22,379 bases of DNA from a virus. Positions 1,891 through 20,386 of the stretch are shown piece by piece (positions within the stretch are counted from its first letter, which is position 1; each line of letters opens with the position of its first letter). Made by a program: the position numbers and the translations under genes. The DNA lies in the IMG/VR virus record IMGVR_UViG_3300035698_029033, positions 1-22,379 of that record; one strand, 5' to 3'. The notes under the pieces are model-generated. The model made no database searches. It worked only from the letters and a program-made list of their open reading frames with translations, and was not told the DNA's origin.

Positions 1891-2562
1891 ATGGAATCAC
1901 CAAATAAACAATATAAGTATCTAAAAGATGTAAATAATATAAGTGACATAGCGTATTTCACTTTATTTGAAAAATATTTAATTCAAAACGTTAAAGGAAA
2001 TGATAAACTTTTTGAATTAGATTCTACAGATCAAGAATCATTACTTGTTAGTAGAGCTGGTGGATATCCATTCCCGGGTTTTACATATACTTTTGTTTAT
2101 AAAGGAAAAGATGTTAAAATAGGACCAGATCAATTTTCTGATTTTGCTCCTATTGTCTTTTGTATGAATTCGGGAAATGGGCATTATTTTTCTGGACTCA
2201 ATTTAAATATGATGCCCCCAAAAGATAGATTAACATTCTTACAGAGCTTTTATGATACATTTAAAGATTTTTATAAAAATGAAGTAGATGAGCTAGCACA
2301 AAATTCTAAGCTAGCTCTTAATAAAAGATTTATAGACTATATTAAAAAAGGTGGCGGAGCTGAAATGTTAAAATCGTTTAGTAAAAAAAACAGTTCTAAC
2401 TATAGCTTTGCTTATCGCAAATATATATTACCTAAAGTAAGAAATTTTAGGATGATCGAATATCAGGAAATCTTTAAATATGCTCCTTTTTATAAACCAA
2501 AGGATGCATTCAGAAAGATGAGTTATGCTCAAGTGCATAAATTGTATAACAGAGCTAAATAA
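1891..2562 (+). CDS. unknown protein in the head/tail completion cluster
   Basis: This 223-residue protein starts directly after the gp4-type stop, so the two are probably translated together. The middle holds a well-formed beta-rich block, YTFVYKGKDVKIGPDQFSDF, then CMNSGNGHYFSGLNLNMMPP, followed by a helical, basic C-terminal half ending FRKMSYAQVHKLYNRAK. In T4 the gene after 4 is 53 (baseplate wedge), but I see no convincing gp53 similarity. A virion or DNA-handling role is inferred from position only. Confidence 0.75.
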   Translation: MESPNKQYKYLKDVNNISDIAYFTLFEKYLIQNVKGNDKLFELDSTDQESLLVSRAGGYPFPGFTYTFVYKGKDVKIGPDQFSDFAPIVFCMNSGNGHYFSGLNLNMMPPKDRLTFLQSFYDTFKDFYKNEVDELAQNSKLALNKRFIDYIKKGGGAEMLKSFSKKNSSNYSFAYRKYILPKVRNFRMIEYQEIFKYAPFYKPKDAFRKMSYAQVHKLYNRAK

Positions 2563-2611
2563 ATCTCGATATCTTTCTAGGATATATAAACTAAATGACA
2601 GGTTTAACGTT

Positions 2612-3280
2612 ATGGAAAAGGTTGGTTTTGTTTATATTACGACGAATTTAAAAAATGGAAAACAATACGTAGGATATCATTTCGGAAAAGAAAATGATGG
2701 ATATTTTGGAAGCGGAGTAATATTTTTGCGAGCATTTAAAAAATATGGTAAAAAAAACTTTAAAAGAGAAATATTAGAACATTGTGATATCAATACTAAT
2801 TTAATCTTAGAAGAAAAATACATAGAAAAATTTAATACTATAACACCTAATGGATATAATATTAGTCCAATAGGTGGTTTTACAAAATGGGGTGGAACAC
2901 ATAGTGATGAATCAAAACAAATAATGAGCGAATTAGCTAAAGAAAGATTAAAAGATAAAACCAATCATCCTTTTTATAATAAACATCATACAGAAGAATC
3001 ATTAAAATTAATGTCTGAAAATAGAAAAGGAAAACATAAAGGGAAGAATCATCATTATTTTAATAAAAAGAGAGATAAAAAAACTAAGGATAAAATATCT
3101 CAGTCTTTAAAAGAAAATTTCAAGAATAATCCGGTTTCTGAAGAGACTAGAAAGAAGTTGAGTAACTCTTTAAAAAATGTAAAAAGAGTCAAATGTGATC
3201 ATTGTGGTAATTACTTTACACCTTGGGGAATAGTTAGTCATAAAAAAGGAATAAATAAACTAAATAAAGAAAATTCATGA
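2612..3280 (+). CDS. GIY-YIG homing endonuclease
   Basis: The 222-residue protein begins at the ATG at 2612 because the GIY-YIG domain starts there (MEKVGFVYITTN, then KQYVGYHFG); an in-frame ATG at 2525 would overlap the preceding gene by 38 nt. The catalytic domain covers about residues 1-95, with a Glu in LEEKYIEKFN and the GYNISPIGG end typical of phage Seg/I-TevI-type proteins. Three or four NUMOD3-like DNA-binding motifs follow (THSDESKQIMSELAKER, HHTEESLKLMSENRKGK, KTKDKISQSLKEN, SEETRKKLSNSLKN). A C-terminal CxxC...H zinc-binding-like motif (CDHCGNYF...SHK) ends it. The TGA overlaps the portal ATG (ATGA at 3277-3280), so this mobile gene is translationally coupled to an essential gene. 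Confidence 0.93.
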   Translation: MEKVGFVYITTNLKNGKQYVGYHFGKENDGYFGSGVIFLRAFKKYGKKNFKREILEHCDINTNLILEEKYIEKFNTITPNGYNISPIGGFTKWGGTHSDESKQIMSELAKERLKDKTNHPFYNKHHTEESLKLMSENRKGKHKGKNHHYFNKKRDKKTKDKISQSLKENFKNNPVSEETRKKLSNSLKNVKRVKCDHCGNYFTPWGIVSHKKGINKLNKENS

Positions 3281-5154
3281 GCGGTTTCACTCTTCGCCCA
3301 ATAGGGTCATCTGGACAATCTGGAAGTACTGGATGGTTAGGAAAAATACAAAGAAATATACGATATCTTTCTGCATTAGGAATGCGATGGGAAGATGAAG
3401 TAGTAAAACAATCTAAAGCAGTTGGTATTTCTGAAGCTCAGATGGATTCTATGTTTGGTATGTATTATCAACAAGGAATAGGATCTATTGGTGCTGATTA
3501 TGGCCAAAAAGAATTTATAGCTTATTATGATAAAGAATATCCGACAAGGAGAGATTTCTTACGTAAATTTGCAATGAATGGAGAGATTGAACATGTTCTT
3601 GAAGTTATAACAGATGAAACTATTATTACTGATAAAAACAATTATTTTGGATATCCTGCAACAGAACAATTAAAATCTGTTTTAAAACAAGAAAAAGCAA
3701 AAGAAATTATTGATGATCTTAATGAATCTTATAGAAAAGTTTATTATGCTCATGGATTTAATCAAGGACATGATGCATGGCATTATTTAAAGAAATTCTT
3801 GATTGATGGATTCTTATCATTTGAAATTATTTATGATGAAAACGATGATGATGATGCTAAAAACATTATAGGATTTAAAGAATTAGATCCAATATCATTA
3901 GAACCTGAATTGAGAGTTGATGAAGATGGAAAAGAATATAGAGTTTGGGTTCAATATCGTGGAGATGCAGATAAGCAAAGAGAATTATTAGATGCTAATT
4001 TAATTTATATTTCATGGGCACGTGGTAATTTTATTTCTAGATTATTTTATGTAGAAAGATTAGTACGTTCATTTAATATGTTAAGAACTCTTGAAAATTC
4101 AAGAATTATCTGGAATGTATGGAATGCTCAAATGAGAGTTAAAATATTAGTTCCTATTGGTACACAATCTGAATCTAAAGCACGTACAAGACTTTCTGAA
4201 TTAAGAGGTATGTACAAAGAAGAACTTAATATTGATGATCAATCAGGAGAAGTAACTTACAATGGACAACCTCAATTTAATTTTGCAAAAACATTCGTTA
4301 TTCCAACTAAAGAAGGTGTTCAAACTGAGATTGATGGTTTCCAACCTCAAGGGTATGATTTAAGTAACACTGATGCTCTTAAATATTTCTGGTATAGATT
4401 CATAATAGAAACTAAATGTCCTCAATCTAGATACTCAATGGATCCTACAACAGGATCTAGTGGAACATGGTCATCAAATGCTGATGGAATTGCTAGAGAT
4501 GAAATAAGATTTGGTAATTTTATTAGTAGAATTAGAGGTATTTTTCAAGAAATATTATTAAAGCCAACTTGGTTACAATTTGCTATCAAACATCCTGAAT
4601 TTGCTAAAGATAAAGCATTAAGAGGCGTTCTAGGATTAGAATTTGTTGAAGAAAATATATTTAAAGCAGCAAAAGAAAGAGATTTAGCAGAAAAAGGAGC
4701 ATCAACTGTAAGTACATTATCAGGTATTATGCAACCTACAGTCAATTCTGATGGATCTCCTGGTCAAGAACCTTTTTATGATACTAAATTCTTAACAGAA
4801 AAATATATGAACTTTACTGAAGCTGATATGACGCTTAATGAAAAATACAAAAAAGAAAGAAGAGAAGAAGTTAAAAAACTTGCAAAAGCTTATGCACGTA
4901 TGATTACTGCACAAGGTGATCAACCAGGTGGGGGTGGAGAAGGTGGCTTTGGTGGAGAAGGAGAAGGTGGCTTTGGTGGCGGAGGATTTGCTAGTGGTGG
5001 AGCAGGTGGAGGAGATTTCGGTGGTGAATTTGGAGATGTAGGTGGAGAAGAAGGTGAAGAATTTGGTGGTGGAGAAGAAGGTGAAGTAGCTCCAGAAGAA
5101 ATTGGGAATGCAGAGGAATTAAGTAACGAACCTGATGATGAGTTAGAACTTTAA
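3277..5154 (+). CDS. 20: portal protein, T4 gp20-like
   Basis: This 625-residue protein fits the T4-type portal (head-tail connector, DNA entry ring). Supporting segments in order are NGEIEHVLEVITDETIITD (about 105), the clip/wing region around WARGNFISRLFYVERLVRSFN (about 255), the stem segment MRVKILVPIGTQSESKA (about 290), then TFVIPTKEG.QTEIDGFQPQGYDLSNTDALKYFWYRFI and PQSRYSMDP. From about residue 548 the protein turns into a long Gly/Glu/Phe-rich, low-complexity tail ending in an acidic stretch, unusual for gp20 and probably disordered. It starts inside the stop of the GIY-YIG gene and its TAA overlaps the next ATG (TAATG). Confidence 0.92.
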   Translation: MSGFTLRPIGSSGQSGSTGWLGKIQRNIRYLSALGMRWEDEVVKQSKAVGISEAQMDSMFGMYYQQGIGSIGADYGQKEFIAYYDKEYPTRRDFLRKFAMNGEIEHVLEVITDETIITDKNNYFGYPATEQLKSVLKQEKAKEIIDDLNESYRKVYYAHGFNQGHDAWHYLKKFLIDGFLSFEIIYDENDDDDAKNIIGFKELDPISLEPELRVDEDGKEYRVWVQYRGDADKQRELLDANLIYISWARGNFISRLFYVERLVRSFNMLRTLENSRIIWNVWNAQMRVKILVPIGTQSESKARTRLSELRGMYKEELNIDDQSGEVTYNGQPQFNFAKTFVIPTKEGVQTEIDGFQPQGYDLSNTDALKYFWYRFIIETKCPQSRYSMDPTTGSSGTWSSNADGIARDEIRFGNFISRIRGIFQEILLKPTWLQFAIKHPEFAKDKALRGVLGLEFVEENIFKAAKERDLAEKGASTVSTLSGIMQPTVNSDGSPGQEPFYDTKFLTEKYMNFTEADMTLNEKYKKERREEVKKLAKAYARMITAQGDQPGGGGEGGFGGEGEGGFGGGGFASGGAGGGDFGGEFGDVGGEEGEEFGGGEEGEVAPEEIGNAEELSNEPDDELEL

Positions 5155-5606
5155 TGAAAGCTAAATTTGTTAATGAATTAAATTTTAAAAGAGATATTGA
5201 TCCTAAAACAGCGATAGGTATTGGAAAAATGGAAGCTTATATTCCATTAATGGAAGATTTTCTGAAAAAAGCTGGATATGAAGTAACAAGAACTAAAATC
5301 AATGAAGATAGAAATTATTACATATGGAAAATCATATCTCCTGTCACAGGAGATAAAAATGAAATGTTTTTAGTTCCGGAACCACATTTAAATCAAGGGT
5401 TTAGTGGATTTGATGATTTTGTTCATTTTTCCCAGTCACCGACTCCATGAGAAATGGTAAAATTTCTTATTGATAGAGATTCCAAAGAAGCAGGAGAACA
5501 ATTACAAATAAAAACAGCAGAATTAGCAACCGCCACAAATGACTTAAAACAAATAAAAAAATTCATATCAAATTCAAATAATTTAGTGATACCAGATGAA
5601 AGCTAA
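5154..5606 (+). pseudogene. tag-family small protein interrupted by in-frame TGA
   Basis: The first open part (98 codons) starts at the ATG overlapping the portal stop. It begins MKAKFVNELNFKRDIDPK followed by TAIGIGK, the N-terminal module shared with several genes here. A TGA at 5448-5450 stops it after SQSPTP, but the same frame continues EMVKFLIDRDSKEAGEQ... for about 51 more codons to a TAA at 5604-5606. That second stop overlaps the ATG (5596) of the next tag gene, the tight coupling seen elsewhere in this operon. The intact gene was therefore probably about 150 residues. A single CGA-to-TGA change would explain the stop. Alternatives are readthrough, or a truly short 98-residue protein. 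Function unknown. Confidence 0.65.
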
Positions 5607-6063: not shown

Positions 6064-6100
6064 TTGACAAATAAATATATTATATTAAAGATAATAAGTT
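6064..6100 (+). promoter_or_regulatory. candidate promoter of the tmRNA
   Basis: A perfect TTGACA lies at 6064-6069, followed by an almost pure A/T stretch. Candidate -10 boxes are TATATT (6081) and GATAAT (6090), but neither has ideal 17-nt spacing, so the exact -10 is undecided. It sits just ahead of the GC-richer tmRNA acceptor half, after the last coding gene of the portal cluster. Confidence 0.4.
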
Positions 6101-6350
6101 CACGCCGAAAGGCTAGTTGCGAGAGGCAACCGTTTGGACCCGGTTTCGAGGCCGGCAGTTCCACTACTCTTTACTTTAGGTTTGGAGTTTACAAAGGTTT
6201 CACACTGAACCCATAAATCAGTGTATTTGGGGCTGACATGGATTTGACAGCGGCGAGCAAGTAGTAATGATAGAACTTATAACGCTAAATAAACGGCGAA
6301 TTTAACACAGAAATGGCACAAGCAGCATAAGATGCGCTTTTGCAACGAGA
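6095..6350 (+). ncRNA. ssrA: circularly permuted (two-piece) tmRNA
   Basis: The acceptor half comes first. GTTGC/GCAAC makes a hairpin (6116-6130). A T-arm-like segment GGACCCGGTTTCGAGGCCGG follows (6137-6156), then CAGTTCC plus discriminator A (6156-6163), followed by CTA rather than an encoded CCA. After a 65-nt spacer with a 7-bp hairpin (6202-6208 with 6218-6224) comes the 5' half, GGGGCTGACATGGATTTGAC from 6229, the conserved tmRNA start. GGGGCTG (6229-6235) pairs with CAGTTCC (6156-6162) over seven pairs. The third is G-U, the alanyl-tRNA synthetase identity element. The tag frame resumes at GGC 6295, after TAAAC, and reads GEFNTEMAQAA then TAA (6328-6330). A terminator follows and no second acceptor half exists downstream. 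T-arm details are slightly irregular (4-bp stem, 8-nt loop). It would rescue stalled ribosomes and tag their products. Confidence 0.85.
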
Positions 6351-6351
6351 C

Positions 6352-6382
6352 TGGTTCCTTACGTAAGTAGGAACCATTTTTT
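6352..6382 (+). terminator. intrinsic terminator after the tmRNA
   Basis: An 8-bp stem TGGTTCCT (6352-6359) pairs with AGGAACCA (6369-6376) and is followed by six T residues (6377-6382). It ends the tmRNA transcript. Confidence 0.9.
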
Positions 6383-6401
6383 ATCTCTTTAGAAATGAGA
6401 T

Positions 6402-6422: not shown

Positions 6423-6752
6423 TTGAAATTAGTTAAAGAAAACATAGCATTTAAGAGAGATGTAGATCCTAAAAGAGTATTAAAGATAGGAAATCAACGT
6501 GTACCTTATCTTGAAATACAAGATGCTATATTTTCTGATGATAATTATGAAAAATTAGAAGAAACAATACATGATCGTTTATTAGAATGCCTCGTTGGGC
6601 AAAGTGCTGTTATGTCAGGAGTTGCTGAAGATATGAAAGGAAAACAATTATATTATGAAGATTTAAAAAAAGCTATAAATAAAATGGTTAGTGAAATTAT
6701 AGATACATGGGAGCAGGGAAATAATGATGATCAAGGGTATATGCAATTGTAA
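6423..6752 (+). CDS. tag-family small protein, TTG start
   Basis: The 109-residue product begins with the shared module MKLVKENIAFKRDVDPKR then VLKIGN, which fixes the TTG at 6423 as the start: paralogues use ATG at the same place. The rest is unrelated to other family members: a helical segment QDAIFSDDNYEKLEETIHDR, a Cys-containing LLECLVG, and a lysine-rich helix before an acidic end. No enzyme motif or membrane segment is visible. It is the first gene after the tmRNA terminator and is preceded by the ATATAAAATAAA element, so it may head a new transcript. Confidence 0.8.
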   Translation: MKLVKENIAFKRDVDPKRVLKIGNQRVPYLEIQDAIFSDDNYEKLEETIHDRLLECLVGQSAVMSGVAEDMKGKQLYYEDLKKAINKMVSEIIDTWEQGNNDDQGYMQL

Positions 6753-15268: not shown

Positions 15269-17899
15269 ATGACAGATTTATTTCAAAACCCTAGTAACGA
15301 TTATATAAATCCCGGATTAGCACCTTGCGCGGGAACTGCAGATGATAGTTTTTTTAGTTTTTTACCTGATGGTGAATTAGGAATTACAGAAGGTTCTGCA
15401 ATTAAAGCGAGATTAGATTTTTCTGATCTTTCAATTCCTGTTGATTCTTGGAGTCAACAATCAAAATTATTATTATCTGGAGAAGTAACATATATTCCTG
15501 GTTTAACTAAAGGTTTAACTAATAGAGAACAAGGTTTTACAATGCCTAATCTTACTACAACTGATGAAGATCTAGATCAATATTTTATGATTATAGATTT
15601 ATCAATCAATTATTACAGTAATTTTGCTTATACAAATGTAAATATAGATGTATCAACTAATTATGATGAAAATTTAGACATTAATACTGCATTAGATATA
15701 GCTTTAAGTGCTGCTGGAATTGGAGTTACTAGTACATATGATCCATCTATTTTAACATTTATTGGAACAGTAGCTGGATATGAATATACTATTTCAAATG
15801 TAATATTAACTCTTATTGATGCATCTCAAAATGTATTATCTCCTTTTACTCCAATTATTATTAATGGAGAAAGAAGTGATATCACTTATTCATTAGAAGA
15901 AAATCCAGATTATAATGTTTTAAATACATTATATCCTAATGGAGCAAATCAAGGTAGTGTTTTAAGAAATATATTTCCTCTTGAAACAGCAGGCGGAACT
16001 ACAATATCTACAATTGATAAATGGATTTATTTAAACCATGTTTCTGATAGAATAACTTATTATGAGACTATTAAAATTGACACATTTATTACTGATATAT
16101 CAACTTGGTTAAAAGTTAGTTATGATCCATCTACATTAATAGGTTCAAGTGATCCTGCATACACATTTGACTTTGATATATCAACACTTAGTTTTACAAT
16201 TGACACATCATTATTTGCATTAACAGTAGCTGATGCTTCTATAACAACCACTGATGCTTCAACTACATATGATCCATCAACTAAAGTTATTGATGCTTCA
16301 ATTCTTTCATATTATAATGTTTATGATTGTTCAATAAATGATACATCAATAAGTTATTCAAATGTTTACGATTCATCTATAACTGGAAACGGTGAAATAT
16401 CTAATTCTTATATCTTAGATAGTTTTATAAATGCTAGTGGTGGGATTACGTATTCTGATTTAGAAGATGTAACAATTTATGACGAAACAATATTATTTTC
16501 ATCATTAAAAACATGTGATAGTAGTTACATAAGTATAAGTTCTTCATTAATTCAAGAGTCATCATTATATGAATTTACTTGTGATGATGTAAGTATTAAA
16601 GATTCTATGCTTTATGATCTAGTAATACTAACTTCTTCTGTTGTAACTAATACAACGCTCAATACTTTAAATGATGTTTCTATATCTTTTTCTGATGTTT
16701 CAATTTATGATTCATCATTACTAAATATGGGAAAGATTGGAACTAAGTTATCAATATTCGAATCAAATATAATTAATTCAGAATTCTCTAATTCTATCAT
16801 AACAGGAGATGCTAGTCTAATATTTACTATAGATGCTTCTGTGAGACTTGAAGATTGTTCTATCGGAAGATACACAATAACTGGTGCTGATATCTTCAGC
16901 AGTGCAATAAAAGATTGTTCAATACTCTCACTAGATGCTAGTGATAATATAATAGAAAAATCTTATCTGACAGATTCAGAGATCACTTCTAGTGAACTTT
17001 TAGATAGTAGTCTTTATGATACTTCTATATGGACATCAAAGTTATCTGATGTCACATTAAGTGTTGTTGAAATAGAAGATTCTTCAATAGTAAATTCAGT
17101 TGTAAGTAGTACTACATTTAGTGGTGTAAATTATATTGATGATGTATCGATTGGAAATTCTATTTTAGGAACTGATTTAGTTAAAGATTCGTTGATTTAT
17201 GATTCTTCATTAGATTCAACAGCTATAACAGGTACTTTGATTTATGGTGGATCAGTAATTGATTCATCTATAGTTGGATCAAGTGTTATTAATAATGATG
17301 CTAGTATAAGTAACATTTATATGGATAATTCTTGGGTGAATGCTTTTAGATTATTAGTTTATATCGATGCTAGTGGAGTTCCGATATATGATTTTACAAT
17401 GGATGGATCTATGCAAGATGCAGCAGAAAATAAAGTATCAATTTATGATTCTGAAATATGGGATTGTTCAATTAACAATGCTATATTAAATGATTGTTCA
17501 ATTTATAGATGTTATTTAGAAGATGTATCACTTAATAACTGTACAATTTATAACACAGTATTAGATCCATCATTCTACATATCATTAATGGATAATAATA
17601 AAATTATAATGATAGATCCTTCAATACAAAATGCTATTGAATTAACGTATGATACATCAACATTCTATAAGAAAGTTACAAAAGTATTAGATGTAGGATT
17701 AAGTGGTACTAGTAATGATACATATTTAAGTGCAGGGGATTATTTAAGTCTTGTTGATACACAAAATGAATGGAATAAAGTAGGAGATATGTATATGTGG
17801 ACAAGTGCTCCTGATGGTGATGATAATTTAATTGATGGTTTTTATTTGTATAATCCACATGATTTCCCTGTACAAGTAGACTATCTAATCTTTGTGTAA
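15269..17899 (+). CDS. large beta-solenoid-like structural protein, possible tail fibre or adhesin
   Basis: The 876-residue protein has an N-terminal region (about 1-350) of mixed beta character. This is followed by about 350 residues dominated by irregular short repeats centred on D-x-S-I/L (DSSI, DASI, DVSI, DCSI, DTSI), typically every 10-12 residues, as expected of a parallel beta-helix. A distinct C-terminal domain (about 780-876) ends FYLYNPHDFPVQVDYLIFV. The whole protein is rich in Ser, Asp, Ile and Tyr and has almost no basic residues. There are no signal peptide or membrane segments. This composition fits virion surface proteins of Bacteroidota phages, but the exact role (fibre, baseplate decoration, neck) is not determined. 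Confidence 0.75.
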   Translation: MTDLFQNPSNDYINPGLAPCAGTADDSFFSFLPDGELGITEGSAIKARLDFSDLSIPVDSWSQQSKLLLSGEVTYIPGLTKGLTNREQGFTMPNLTTTDEDLDQYFMIIDLSINYYSNFAYTNVNIDVSTNYDENLDINTALDIALSAAGIGVTSTYDPSILTFIGTVAGYEYTISNVILTLIDASQNVLSPFTPIIINGERSDITYSLEENPDYNVLNTLYPNGANQGSVLRNIFPLETAGGTTISTIDKWIYLNHVSDRITYYETIKIDTFITDISTWLKVSYDPSTLIGSSDPAYTFDFDISTLSFTIDTSLFALTVADASITTTDASTTYDPSTKVIDASILSYYNVYDCSINDTSISYSNVYDSSITGNGEISNSYILDSFINASGGITYSDLEDVTIYDETILFSSLKTCDSSYISISSSLIQESSLYEFTCDDVSIKDSMLYDLVILTSSVVTNTTLNTLNDVSISFSDVSIYDSSLLNMGKIGTKLSIFESNIINSEFSNSIITGDASLIFTIDASVRLEDCSIGRYTITGADIFSSAIKDCSILSLDASDNIIEKSYLTDSEITSSELLDSSLYDTSIWTSKLSDVTLSVVEIEDSSIVNSVVSSTTFSGVNYIDDVSIGNSILGTDLVKDSLIYDSSLDSTAITGTLIYGGSVIDSSIVGSSVINNDASISNIYMDNSWVNAFRLLVYIDASGVPIYDFTMDGSMQDAAENKVSIYDSEIWDCSINNAILNDCSIYRCYLEDVSLNNCTIYNTVLDPSFYISLMDNNKIIMIDPSIQNAIELTYDTSTFYKKVTKVLDVGLSGTSNDTYLSAGDYLSLVDTQNEWNKVGDMYMWTSAPDGDDNLIDGFYLYNPHDFPVQVDYLIFV

Positions 17900-17903
17900 A
17901 ATT

Positions 17904-18212
17904 ATGAAAGCGAATTTTGTTTTTGAAAATATTGCATTTAAAAGAAATATTGATCCTAGATCTATATTAATAGGAGTTAAAATAATTTCTGAAGAAATTG
18001 TAAGTGATGGAAATGCTATTCGAATCATATTAGAATACAATGGACATAAATTTTTATTAAAAGGGAAAAAAGATTTGGAGCATTATTATGATGATTGGGA
18101 TTTATTTAGTATTGATCCAACTCGCACTGTAATGATAGAATTGAATATAGGATTAAACAGAGAAGAAGCATTATTTAAATCTAAAGAAGTAATAAAAGAA
18201 AAATATTCATGA
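17904..18212 (+). CDS. tag-family small protein
   Basis: The 102-residue product starts at the ATG at 17904; an in-frame ATG at 17892 would overlap the previous gene. It begins MKANFVFENIAFKRNIDPR then SILIGV, the shared N-terminal module. The body is a small alpha/beta domain (IRIILEYNGHKFLLKGKKD) with an acidic helix and a Lys-rich end. No motif recognised. Its TGA overlaps the next ATG (ATGA at 18209), so expression is coupled to the following gene. Confidence 0.8.
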   Translation: MKANFVFENIAFKRNIDPRSILIGVKIISEEIVSDGNAIRIILEYNGHKFLLKGKKDLEHYYDDWDLFSIDPTRTVMIELNIGLNREEALFKSKEVIKEKYS

Positions 18213-19255: not shown

Positions 19256-19921
19256 ATGAAGACACCAATCAAAGAATCTCTTAACGAAAGTTATGAATAT
19301 TTCTTCATGAACAAATACGATGATTTGTCATTTGATGATATGGATAATTATTTTACAGATGATCTTAGTGAAGAAATGGATAAGTATAAACTTATGATAT
19401 GGGCTTCCATTGAAAAAGATTTTTTAGAACCACAAGTTATTAATGAAGAAATAGGGTTTAAAAGAAACATCAATCCTAAAAAAGCTTTAAATATAGGTAT
19501 GAAAGGTAAATGGAAAATTATTCATTTTATTTCAGAATTTATTGAAAATTATGAAGAAGATGATGAACATGATATCAGTGATATTCTTCAACCTAAAGTT
19601 AACATATTAACTGAAATTTATAAAGAGGAATTTGATCTTTATGGTGATTTAGGATTAGATGAAGATTGGATATGGATAGCTATTTCTGCAGAAGCAGAAG
19701 CACATAATTTTCATGAAGCTGGAATTTGTTTAAGTGGTAATTATAAAAATAAACATTGGGTTGATGCATTAGGATTAGAATTTATAATAAATAAAGAATT
19801 TAGCATAGGAGATGCTAGAAAAGGAATTACAGATCCTAATTGGTTTGAAAATAAATTAAACGATATCTATAATCATATAACTTATATGAAAGATATGAAA
19901 TTAGATGATGAAACTAGTTAG
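19256..19921 (+). CDS. chimeric protein with internal copy of the tag
   Basis: The 221-residue protein has a first segment (residues 1-60, MKTPIKESLNESYEYFFMNK..., acidic). It is joined at about residue 61 to a copy of the shared module, VINEEIGFKRNINPKK followed by ALNIGM. The C-terminal 130 residues are acidic and Trp-rich (LDEDWIWIAISAEAEAHNFHEAG). In other members the module is at the very N-terminus, so this looks like an in-frame fusion of a short upstream ORF to a tag gene. The stop overlaps the ATG of the next tag gene. No enzymatic motif seen. Confidence 0.75.
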   Translation: MKTPIKESLNESYEYFFMNKYDDLSFDDMDNYFTDDLSEEMDKYKLMIWASIEKDFLEPQVINEEIGFKRNINPKKALNIGMKGKWKIIHFISEFIENYEEDDEHDISDILQPKVNILTEIYKEEFDLYGDLGLDEDWIWIAISAEAEAHNFHEAGICLSGNYKNKHWVDALGLEFIINKEFSIGDARKGITDPNWFENKLNDIYNHITYMKDMKLDDETS

Positions 19922-20386
19922 AGAAAACATATCATTTAGAAGAGATTTAAATACTCAATCAGCATTGAAAGTAGGGAGAAAAGCGTTGATTGAGGATTGG
20001 TTTAAAACTTGGGTTCCAGATGTTGATTATGTTATAAATGGTTATAATATAGAGGTAAAAGGATATTTAAATTTGCGAGGAACTAACATAACCAATTTAC
20101 CAGCCGGGTTAAAAGGTAGAAGGTGGGATAGATTTGCGAGGAACTAGCATTACCAGTTTAGCCTGCTAAGTTGAAAGTAAGTCATGGGTTAGATTTGCGA
20201 GGAAGTAGCATCACTAGTTTGCCAGATGATTTAGAAGTAGGAGGTGGATTAACTTTGCGAGAAAGCAGCATAACCAGTTTGCCTGCTGGATTGAAAGTAG
20301 GTGGTTATTTAGATTTGCAAGGAACTAGCATCACTAGTTTGCCAGATGATTTAGAAGTAGGAGGAAATATATATAAAGATTTTTGA
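19908..20386 (+). pseudogene. tag-family repeat protein with two 1-nt insertions
   Basis: It starts MKLVRENISFRRDLNTQS then ALKVGRK, a short linker (WFKTWVPDVDYVINGY) and a series of 20-residue repeats of the form LDLRGTSITSLPAGLKVGG (60-bp units from about 20060 to 20365). As read, the frame breaks at about 20115 (extra G in AAAGGTAG) and is recovered after a second extra base at about 20160 (GTTTAGCCTG against GTTTGCCTG in other units). Removing both restores one continuous repeat protein of about 159 residues ending NIYKDF. The repeats resemble short leucine-rich-like units found in phage and bacterial proteins. Two separate ORFs (19908-20147 and 20171-20386) are what survives otherwise. 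Confidence 0.7.
20060..20365 (+). repeat. 60-bp tandem repeats (LDLRGTSITSLP units)
   Basis: About five units of 60 bp, each encoding L-L-G-S/T-I-T-S-LP-L-VGG-type motifs. Units alternate between an AGL/AKL version and a DDLEVGG version, so the higher-order period is 120 bp. Confidence 0.85.

Follow-up and report, generated by a model that had tools for sequence, protein, structure and literature searches.

How does a tmRNA gene come to lie in a phage genome with its acceptor half ahead of its coding half, and does it still make a working RNA? The window examined here, the whole 22,379-nucleotide stretch of viral DNA given by positions 1 to 22,379 of IMG/VR record IMGVR_UViG_3300035698_029033, raises this question at a locus that a sequence-only reading had taken for a circularly permuted phage tmRNA at 6095-6384. 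A comparison with all Rfam models (cmscan) confirms a permuted gene: positions 6104-6382 of the plus strand, on which all parts of the gene and the portal gene lie, match RF04321 (tmRNA_permuted; cut-off 47) at 47.9 bits and E 8e-7, the sole match over cut-off in the window. This score barely exceeds the cut-off; the family of relatives described below supplies the firm evidence. A permissive search with the one-piece model RF00023 and the alpha, cyano, and mitochondrial tmRNA models found no window match at E<=0.5, and the beta_tmRNA model reached 22.8 bits against its cut-off of 84. The locus therefore stands as first proposed, with an altered start: the upstream part of the gene begins near 6090-6104. 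No close DNA relative was found among named phages, and an exact 20-mer of the coding half had no match in IMG/VR.

Immediately 5' of the gene lies a weak promoter-like TATATTA (6081-6087), with a TTGACA at 6064-6069; TATATT[AG] occurs upstream in 15 of 33 family members, compared with 3.9 expected from mononucleotide shuffles of this AT-rich sequence. Near the 5' end of the acceptor piece, a GCC-GAAA-GGC hairpin (6104-6113) can be read from the sequence, and its counterpart, with bases changed, is readable in most relatives. The acceptor piece continues with one strand of the P2 helix (CCGTTTG, 6130-6136), which in the alignment of 16 sequences pairs with CAGCGG at 6248-6253 in the coding piece, and with the T arm (6139-6155), aligned by RF04321 as a 4-bp stem around an 8-nt loop (CCGG-TTTCGAGG-CCGG, loop TTTCGAGG). 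Judged by a 5-bp T stem with a TTCRA loop, most relatives are regular; the window copy has four pairs and an 8-nt loop, which contains TTTCGA, and this stem and loop size is probably why ARAGORN called no tmRNA there. The acceptor 3' strand CAGTTCC (6156-6162) and discriminator A6163 are followed by CTA. CCA is thus not encoded, as had been noted, an ordinary trait given that 25 of 30 Bacteroidota one-piece tmRNAs are also without it.

Between both acceptor strands lies a segment of 65 nt (6164-6228), presumably excised from the transcript, whose length ranges from 15 to 186 nt across relatives. The acceptor 5' strand GGGGCTG (6229-6235) opens with G1 at 6229, the expected RNase P site. All seven acceptor pairs form; pair 3 is the G.U of alanine identity (G3.U70), and pair 4 is G.U too. 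The coding half, 3' of the spacer, reads GGGGCTGACATGGATTTGACAGCGG...TAAAC-GGC..., and its tag frame (6295-6330, GGC...GCATAA) resumes at GGC after TAAAC, encodes GEFNTEMAQAA, and stops at TAA, with the frame and the -AA end kept in relatives. A rho-independent terminator (6352-6382; stem 6352-6376 plus T6) is indicated by folding energy: positions 6330-6385 fold at -16 kcal/mol (z -3.1), and 0 of 200 shuffles did equally well. A terminator scan overlooked it because its loop exceeds 8 nt. The order of the halves, their seven-pair helix with a G-U third pair, the tag and its AA end, the strong terminator, and the absence of a second acceptor half 3' of the tag had all been proposed from the letters, and each was borne out.

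The synteny landmark of the locus is the upstream portal protein gene (gp20-like; 3277-5154, PHROG 213, E 1e-39). By eye, a putative GIY-YIG homing endonuclease open reading frame occupies 2525-3280, flanked by the DNA end protector and portal genes. Close to their N termini, five small open reading frames of the window (5154-5450, 6423-6752, 17892-18212, 19256-19921, and 19905-20147) share a peptide resembling ENIxFKRDxDPKxxLxIG, which may be a signal for head targeting or cleavage.

Relatives were gathered from IMG/VR through this portal protein, and RF04321 matched 18 of 21 and 19 of 44 further records at E 2e-8 or better, with scores reaching 81.1 bits. Altogether, the portal protein led to 36 IMG/VR contigs with a permuted tmRNA, or 37 including one (L113) found by a DNA pattern. 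In all records inspected, the permuted gene lies directly downstream of the portal gene, and several records lacking an RF04321 match end near that gene; no permuted tmRNA was present in the longer records L019/L159 (42 kb), L151 (33 kb), and L188 (220 kb). RF00023 was over cut-off in 0 of 21 relatives and in no permuted record. Many relatives were called permuted by ARAGORN, GENKTEMAMAA and GEQFNEYRIAA being among their tags.

Covariation in an alignment of 16 different sequences supports the helices that join the two halves. Across the 19 pairs of the acceptor stem, T stem, and P2, 94.7% of helix cells are paired, compared with 72.7% in shuffles and 40-49% when partners are slid by 1-3 columns. 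Double-change cells number 60 against 17.8 +/- 3.3 in shuffles, and 13 of 19 pairs vary in both partners. Every P2 pair (7/7) shows double changes, with 85.7% of its cells paired across the 16 sequences, and the T stem is paired in 16 of 16 sequences with double changes in 5 of 5 pairs, the window copy being aligned with a one-base gap. RNAalifold recovers the same helices along with a P2 extension. Pairs 4-7 of the acceptor stem vary, and G3.U70 is invariant in 35 of 35 permuted phage sequences; C74 in the same table is partly a matter of construction, as the parser demanded AC after the acceptor strand. T loops without TTCRA occur in L037, L196, and L198 (GGC[AG]GAA), L040 (AGGCATA), and L210 (GGCGGTT), where the T stem is kept through compensating changes.

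Several observations point to Bacteroidota as hosts. The portal protein of the window is closest to those of LR756500, the Lak phages of Prevotella, and other huge phages, and huge phages of this kind have been assigned to Bacteroidetes (PMC7162821). The same phage family appears in a Bacteroidales metagenome bin (L074; L110) that also holds a one-piece tmRNA, where L110 has its own permuted tmRNA with tag GENVYEMNLAA, a co-occurrence that as binning is no proof of host. One-piece tmRNAs were over cut-off in 141 of 148 sampled Bacteroidota genomes and RF04321 in only 2 of 296; one of these two is a contig of the window's phage family, and the other is a permuted gene with tRNA genes next to it, similar to that of the crAss-like phage cr60_1 (L109, G257:C1:986035-986308). 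GE-type tags are ordinary among Bacteroidota. Host tags mostly end in YALAA, YRLAA, or YAMAA; phage tags keep the -AA end and differ upstream of it, which bears on the earlier suggestion that the gene may serve to escape or reprogram host rescue. Together with the host-like resume context and the missing CCA, the portal affinity and the Bacteroidales bin make it likely that the phage infects Bacteroidota.

The nearest phages outside the permuted set carry the RNA in standard order. RF04321 was over cut-off in none of 10 named huge or jumbo phages, four of which have a one-piece tmRNA instead, and one-piece genes were found in LR756500, LR756504, Lak-A1, Lak-B4, and, among relatives at 38-50% portal identity, seven IMG/VR contigs. 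The split is clean: no record examined holds both forms. The one-piece genes of Lak, LR756500, and LR756504 share with the permuted ones a related portal gene, tag ends (EMRMAA, FRMAA), and often a place adjoining the portal gene; in Lak and L182-L185, the one-piece gene is immediately upstream of the portal gene, while the permuted gene is downstream. One-piece tags GEYNEYRMAA and GNNAEMRMAA (the latter from LR756500) resemble the permuted tags GEQFNEYRIAA, GENSYEYRMAA, and GETVNEMRMAA, and the ends NEYR[MI]AA and EM[RKA]MAA are common to both sorts of phage gene. Apart from order, they differ in the distance from G1 to the resume codon, 61-69 nt in permuted genes versus 89-102 nt in one-piece genes (91-101 nt in Lak, LR756500, and LR756504), about 30 nt shorter, as if pseudoknot 1 had been lost. 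Two Lak-related contigs, L211 and L212, have a tRNA with a CTA anticodon near their one-piece tmRNA, which suggests TAG recoding.

An order-independent core tree of 123 columns placed permuted and one-piece phage genes together (95/89), apart from hosts and from the Rfam permuted consensus, although with so few columns, AT-rich phages, and long branches, this grouping could be partly compositional. The bacterial permuted lineages were represented in it by the Rfam beta and merged permuted consensus only, with no individual alpha, beta, or cyano sequences. A portal tree neither showed nor rejected one permuted clade (p-AU 0.45). Because the swapped gene sits at one place across a group of giant phages, with the normal order retained in their sisters and hosts, viruses may be where the swap took place. 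Our best reading, which we hold with somewhat more belief than doubt, is that a one-piece phage tmRNA next to the portal gene became permuted within the phage lineage.

The gene could also have become permuted once in other Bacteroidota phages, such as the crAss-like ones, and spread by transfer, with the jumbo clade importing it. tmRNA genes do move between hosts and phages, given that the one-piece phage tmRNAs of L208 and L210 group with host sequences. Permuted tmRNAs are found in cr60_1, in genome G257, and in other phages with tags like GKTINLFREVAIAA; these have a spacer module, module B (see below), in common with the jumbo clade, so that the gene may have originated outside it. In the core tree, crAss-like sequences share one half with the jumbo genes. 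The human gut phage cr60_1 (NC_055891), whose gene is annotated SsrA and called permuted by ARAGORN, differs from the window's phage in tag type (GNTSYVMDYTRLAA) and in the genome place of the gene; its record (L118) also bears RAGATH-9 and RAGATH-20 RNAs. Against such an import, jumbo tags (NEYRIAA, EMRMAA) match the one-piece relatives of their own lineage and not the GK-I-MF type, and the place beside the portal gene is conserved. We consider the transfer unlikely, if worth keeping in mind, and favor permutation within the phage lineage.

The segment that permutation places between the two pieces is itself structured. Module A, a hairpin plus an H-type pseudoknot recognized by comparative pairing (AAAGGTTT...TGAACC...TCA; 6165-6225), takes up 61 of the 65 spacer bases in the window. 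It is laid out as a hairpin, AAAGG[CT]TT, a stem, TGA[AG]CC within the loop of that stem, and TCA; in 16 sequences, 93.7% of the cells of the putative pseudoknot are paired, and double-change cells number 43, versus 16 +/- 3.7 when shuffled. Spacers of L028, L035, and L198 contain it as well. Its pattern has 47 IMG/VR matches, many by chance, and module A is not a spacer-only motif: among 26 examined copies with a well-paired stem, 5 are in permuted tmRNA by a strict test and 21 elsewhere, in phage tRNA arrays or intergenic regions (L241, L247, L250, L254, L262, and L273 among the records). In L262, it lies near Rfam abiF and DUF3800-VIII RNAs. The pattern also occurs in 3 of 296 Bacteroidota genomes, where the best copy adjoins a Fic-like gene. 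Module A matched no known Rfam RNA; beyond the tmRNA models, the spacer (6164-6228) had no Rfam match at E<=0.5, nor did those of relatives at E<=3.

Module B is 23 nt long (GCTAACCCGTCGCGTTAGTACGG) and has ten exact IMG/VR matches, all in permuted tmRNA spacers of quite different phages (L196, L204, L223, L225-L229, L231, and L232), with eight of these matches lying beyond the portal clade. A relaxed version of the pattern gave 16 matches, 15 of them in such spacers, and variants (L037, L234, L235, L238) exchange GC..GC for GT..AC; no Rfam family was found for it. Three more modules recur in spacers: C in L032, L035, and L194, D in L039, L190, L201, and L203, and E in L190 and L199, with E and D in tandem in L190 and C joined with A in L035. 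One conjecture, which we rather doubt, is that a permutation of viral origin made the tmRNA gene a carrier whose pseudoknot RNAs (modules A-E) would be released with defined ends by tRNA processing and might, for instance, counter RNA-dependent host defense as decoys or antidotes.

Two-piece tmRNAs arise when tRNA-processing enzymes cut a precursor; the RNA then receives its CCA and is charged with alanine, and SmpB brings it to ribosomes that have stalled. We think it probable that the window holds a working gene of this kind, belonging to a giant T4-like phage that is related to Lak and infects Bacteroidota. Folding of the transcript (6090-6382) would pair both acceptor strands and the two strands of P2; cuts by tRNA-processing enzymes on the 5' side of G6229 and the 3' side of A6163 would free the 65-nt spacer, and the acceptor and coding pieces would stay joined by pairing. 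CCA would then be added and alanine charged via G3.U70. With host SmpB, the RNA would free stalled ribosomes during infection and append GEFNTEMAQAA. Huge phages are known to carry both tmRNA and SmpB (PMC7162821), and SmpB is encoded in Lak and LR756504. It was not found in LR756500 or in permuted contigs up to 405 kb, some of which may be incomplete, and host SmpB is assumed for this reason. Ribosome rescue while host mRNA is degraded is a plausible benefit to the phage; that altered tag ends could change the fate of tagged proteins is speculation.

An improbable alternative is that the gene in this phage is decaying or, rather than rescuing ribosomes, serves as a decoy to titrate SmpB or AlaRS. 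The 4-bp T stem, the ARAGORN miss, and the unusual AQAA tag end fit such a reading, as does the reported strong inhibition of tmRNA by a TLD-only tmRNA-like RNA, perhaps via SmpB titration (Mao et al., as cited in PMC4131195), yet the tag frame, the seven acceptor pairs, P2, and the terminator are intact, and L039 has the same type of T arm. A functional two-piece RNA stays the reading we prefer.

Permuted tmRNAs have been attributed to a few bacterial lineages. The expectation that none had been described in a T4-like phage proved wrong, since T4-like marine myophages with two-piece tmRNAs have been published (PMC9004378), although the claim of one in this T4-like phage is supported. ARAGORN suggested 53 two-piece tmRNAs in 18,146 phage genomes (PMC9004378), and the merged permuted model RF04321 was already published (PMC11915505). 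The marine myophage Melnitz of OM43 and the pelagiphage Mosig likewise carry permuted tmRNAs, which were described as akin to SAR11/alphaproteobacterial genes and tied to a glutamine riboswitch (PMC9004378), in contrast to the Bacteroidota phages here, in which there was no riboswitch match. In a partial literature search, no paper dealt with permuted tmRNAs of Bacteroidota phages or with the spacer modules; the tmRNA database lists 79 phage sequences, whose forms may include permuted ones. A cyano-type consensus search for phage controls gave weak matches only.

The phage genes share with the Rfam permuted lineages (RF04321; alpha RF01849, beta RF01850, cyano RF01851) the order of acceptor half, spacer, and coding half, the acceptor stem, T arm, P2, and tag frame, but they stay below each lineage cut-off of RF01849-51 (at best 49.6 versus 84 for beta and 48.0 versus 70 for cyano) and differ in their short G1-to-resume span, GE-type tag, non-encoded CCA, and structured spacer modules. 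Acquisition from an alpha- or betaproteobacterial or cyanobacterial permuted lineage would account for the identical gene order and some similarity to the beta and cyano models (49.6 bits at most), but is very improbable when all three lineage models fall below cut-off, the resume context, tag type, and missing CCA fit Bacteroidota, and the core tree separates phage genes from the Rfam beta and merged permuted consensus. The closest relatives are instead the one-piece tmRNAs of sister huge phages, which supports the earlier suggestion of a new lineage; the permuted tmRNA appears to represent one.

The spacer modules suggest that phages have an unexplored class of small RNAs located between the pieces of a processed RNA. 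With one phage lineage having both forms beside the same portal gene, and with likely hosts that keep the one-piece form, how and why an RNA gene becomes permuted becomes testable in close relatives.
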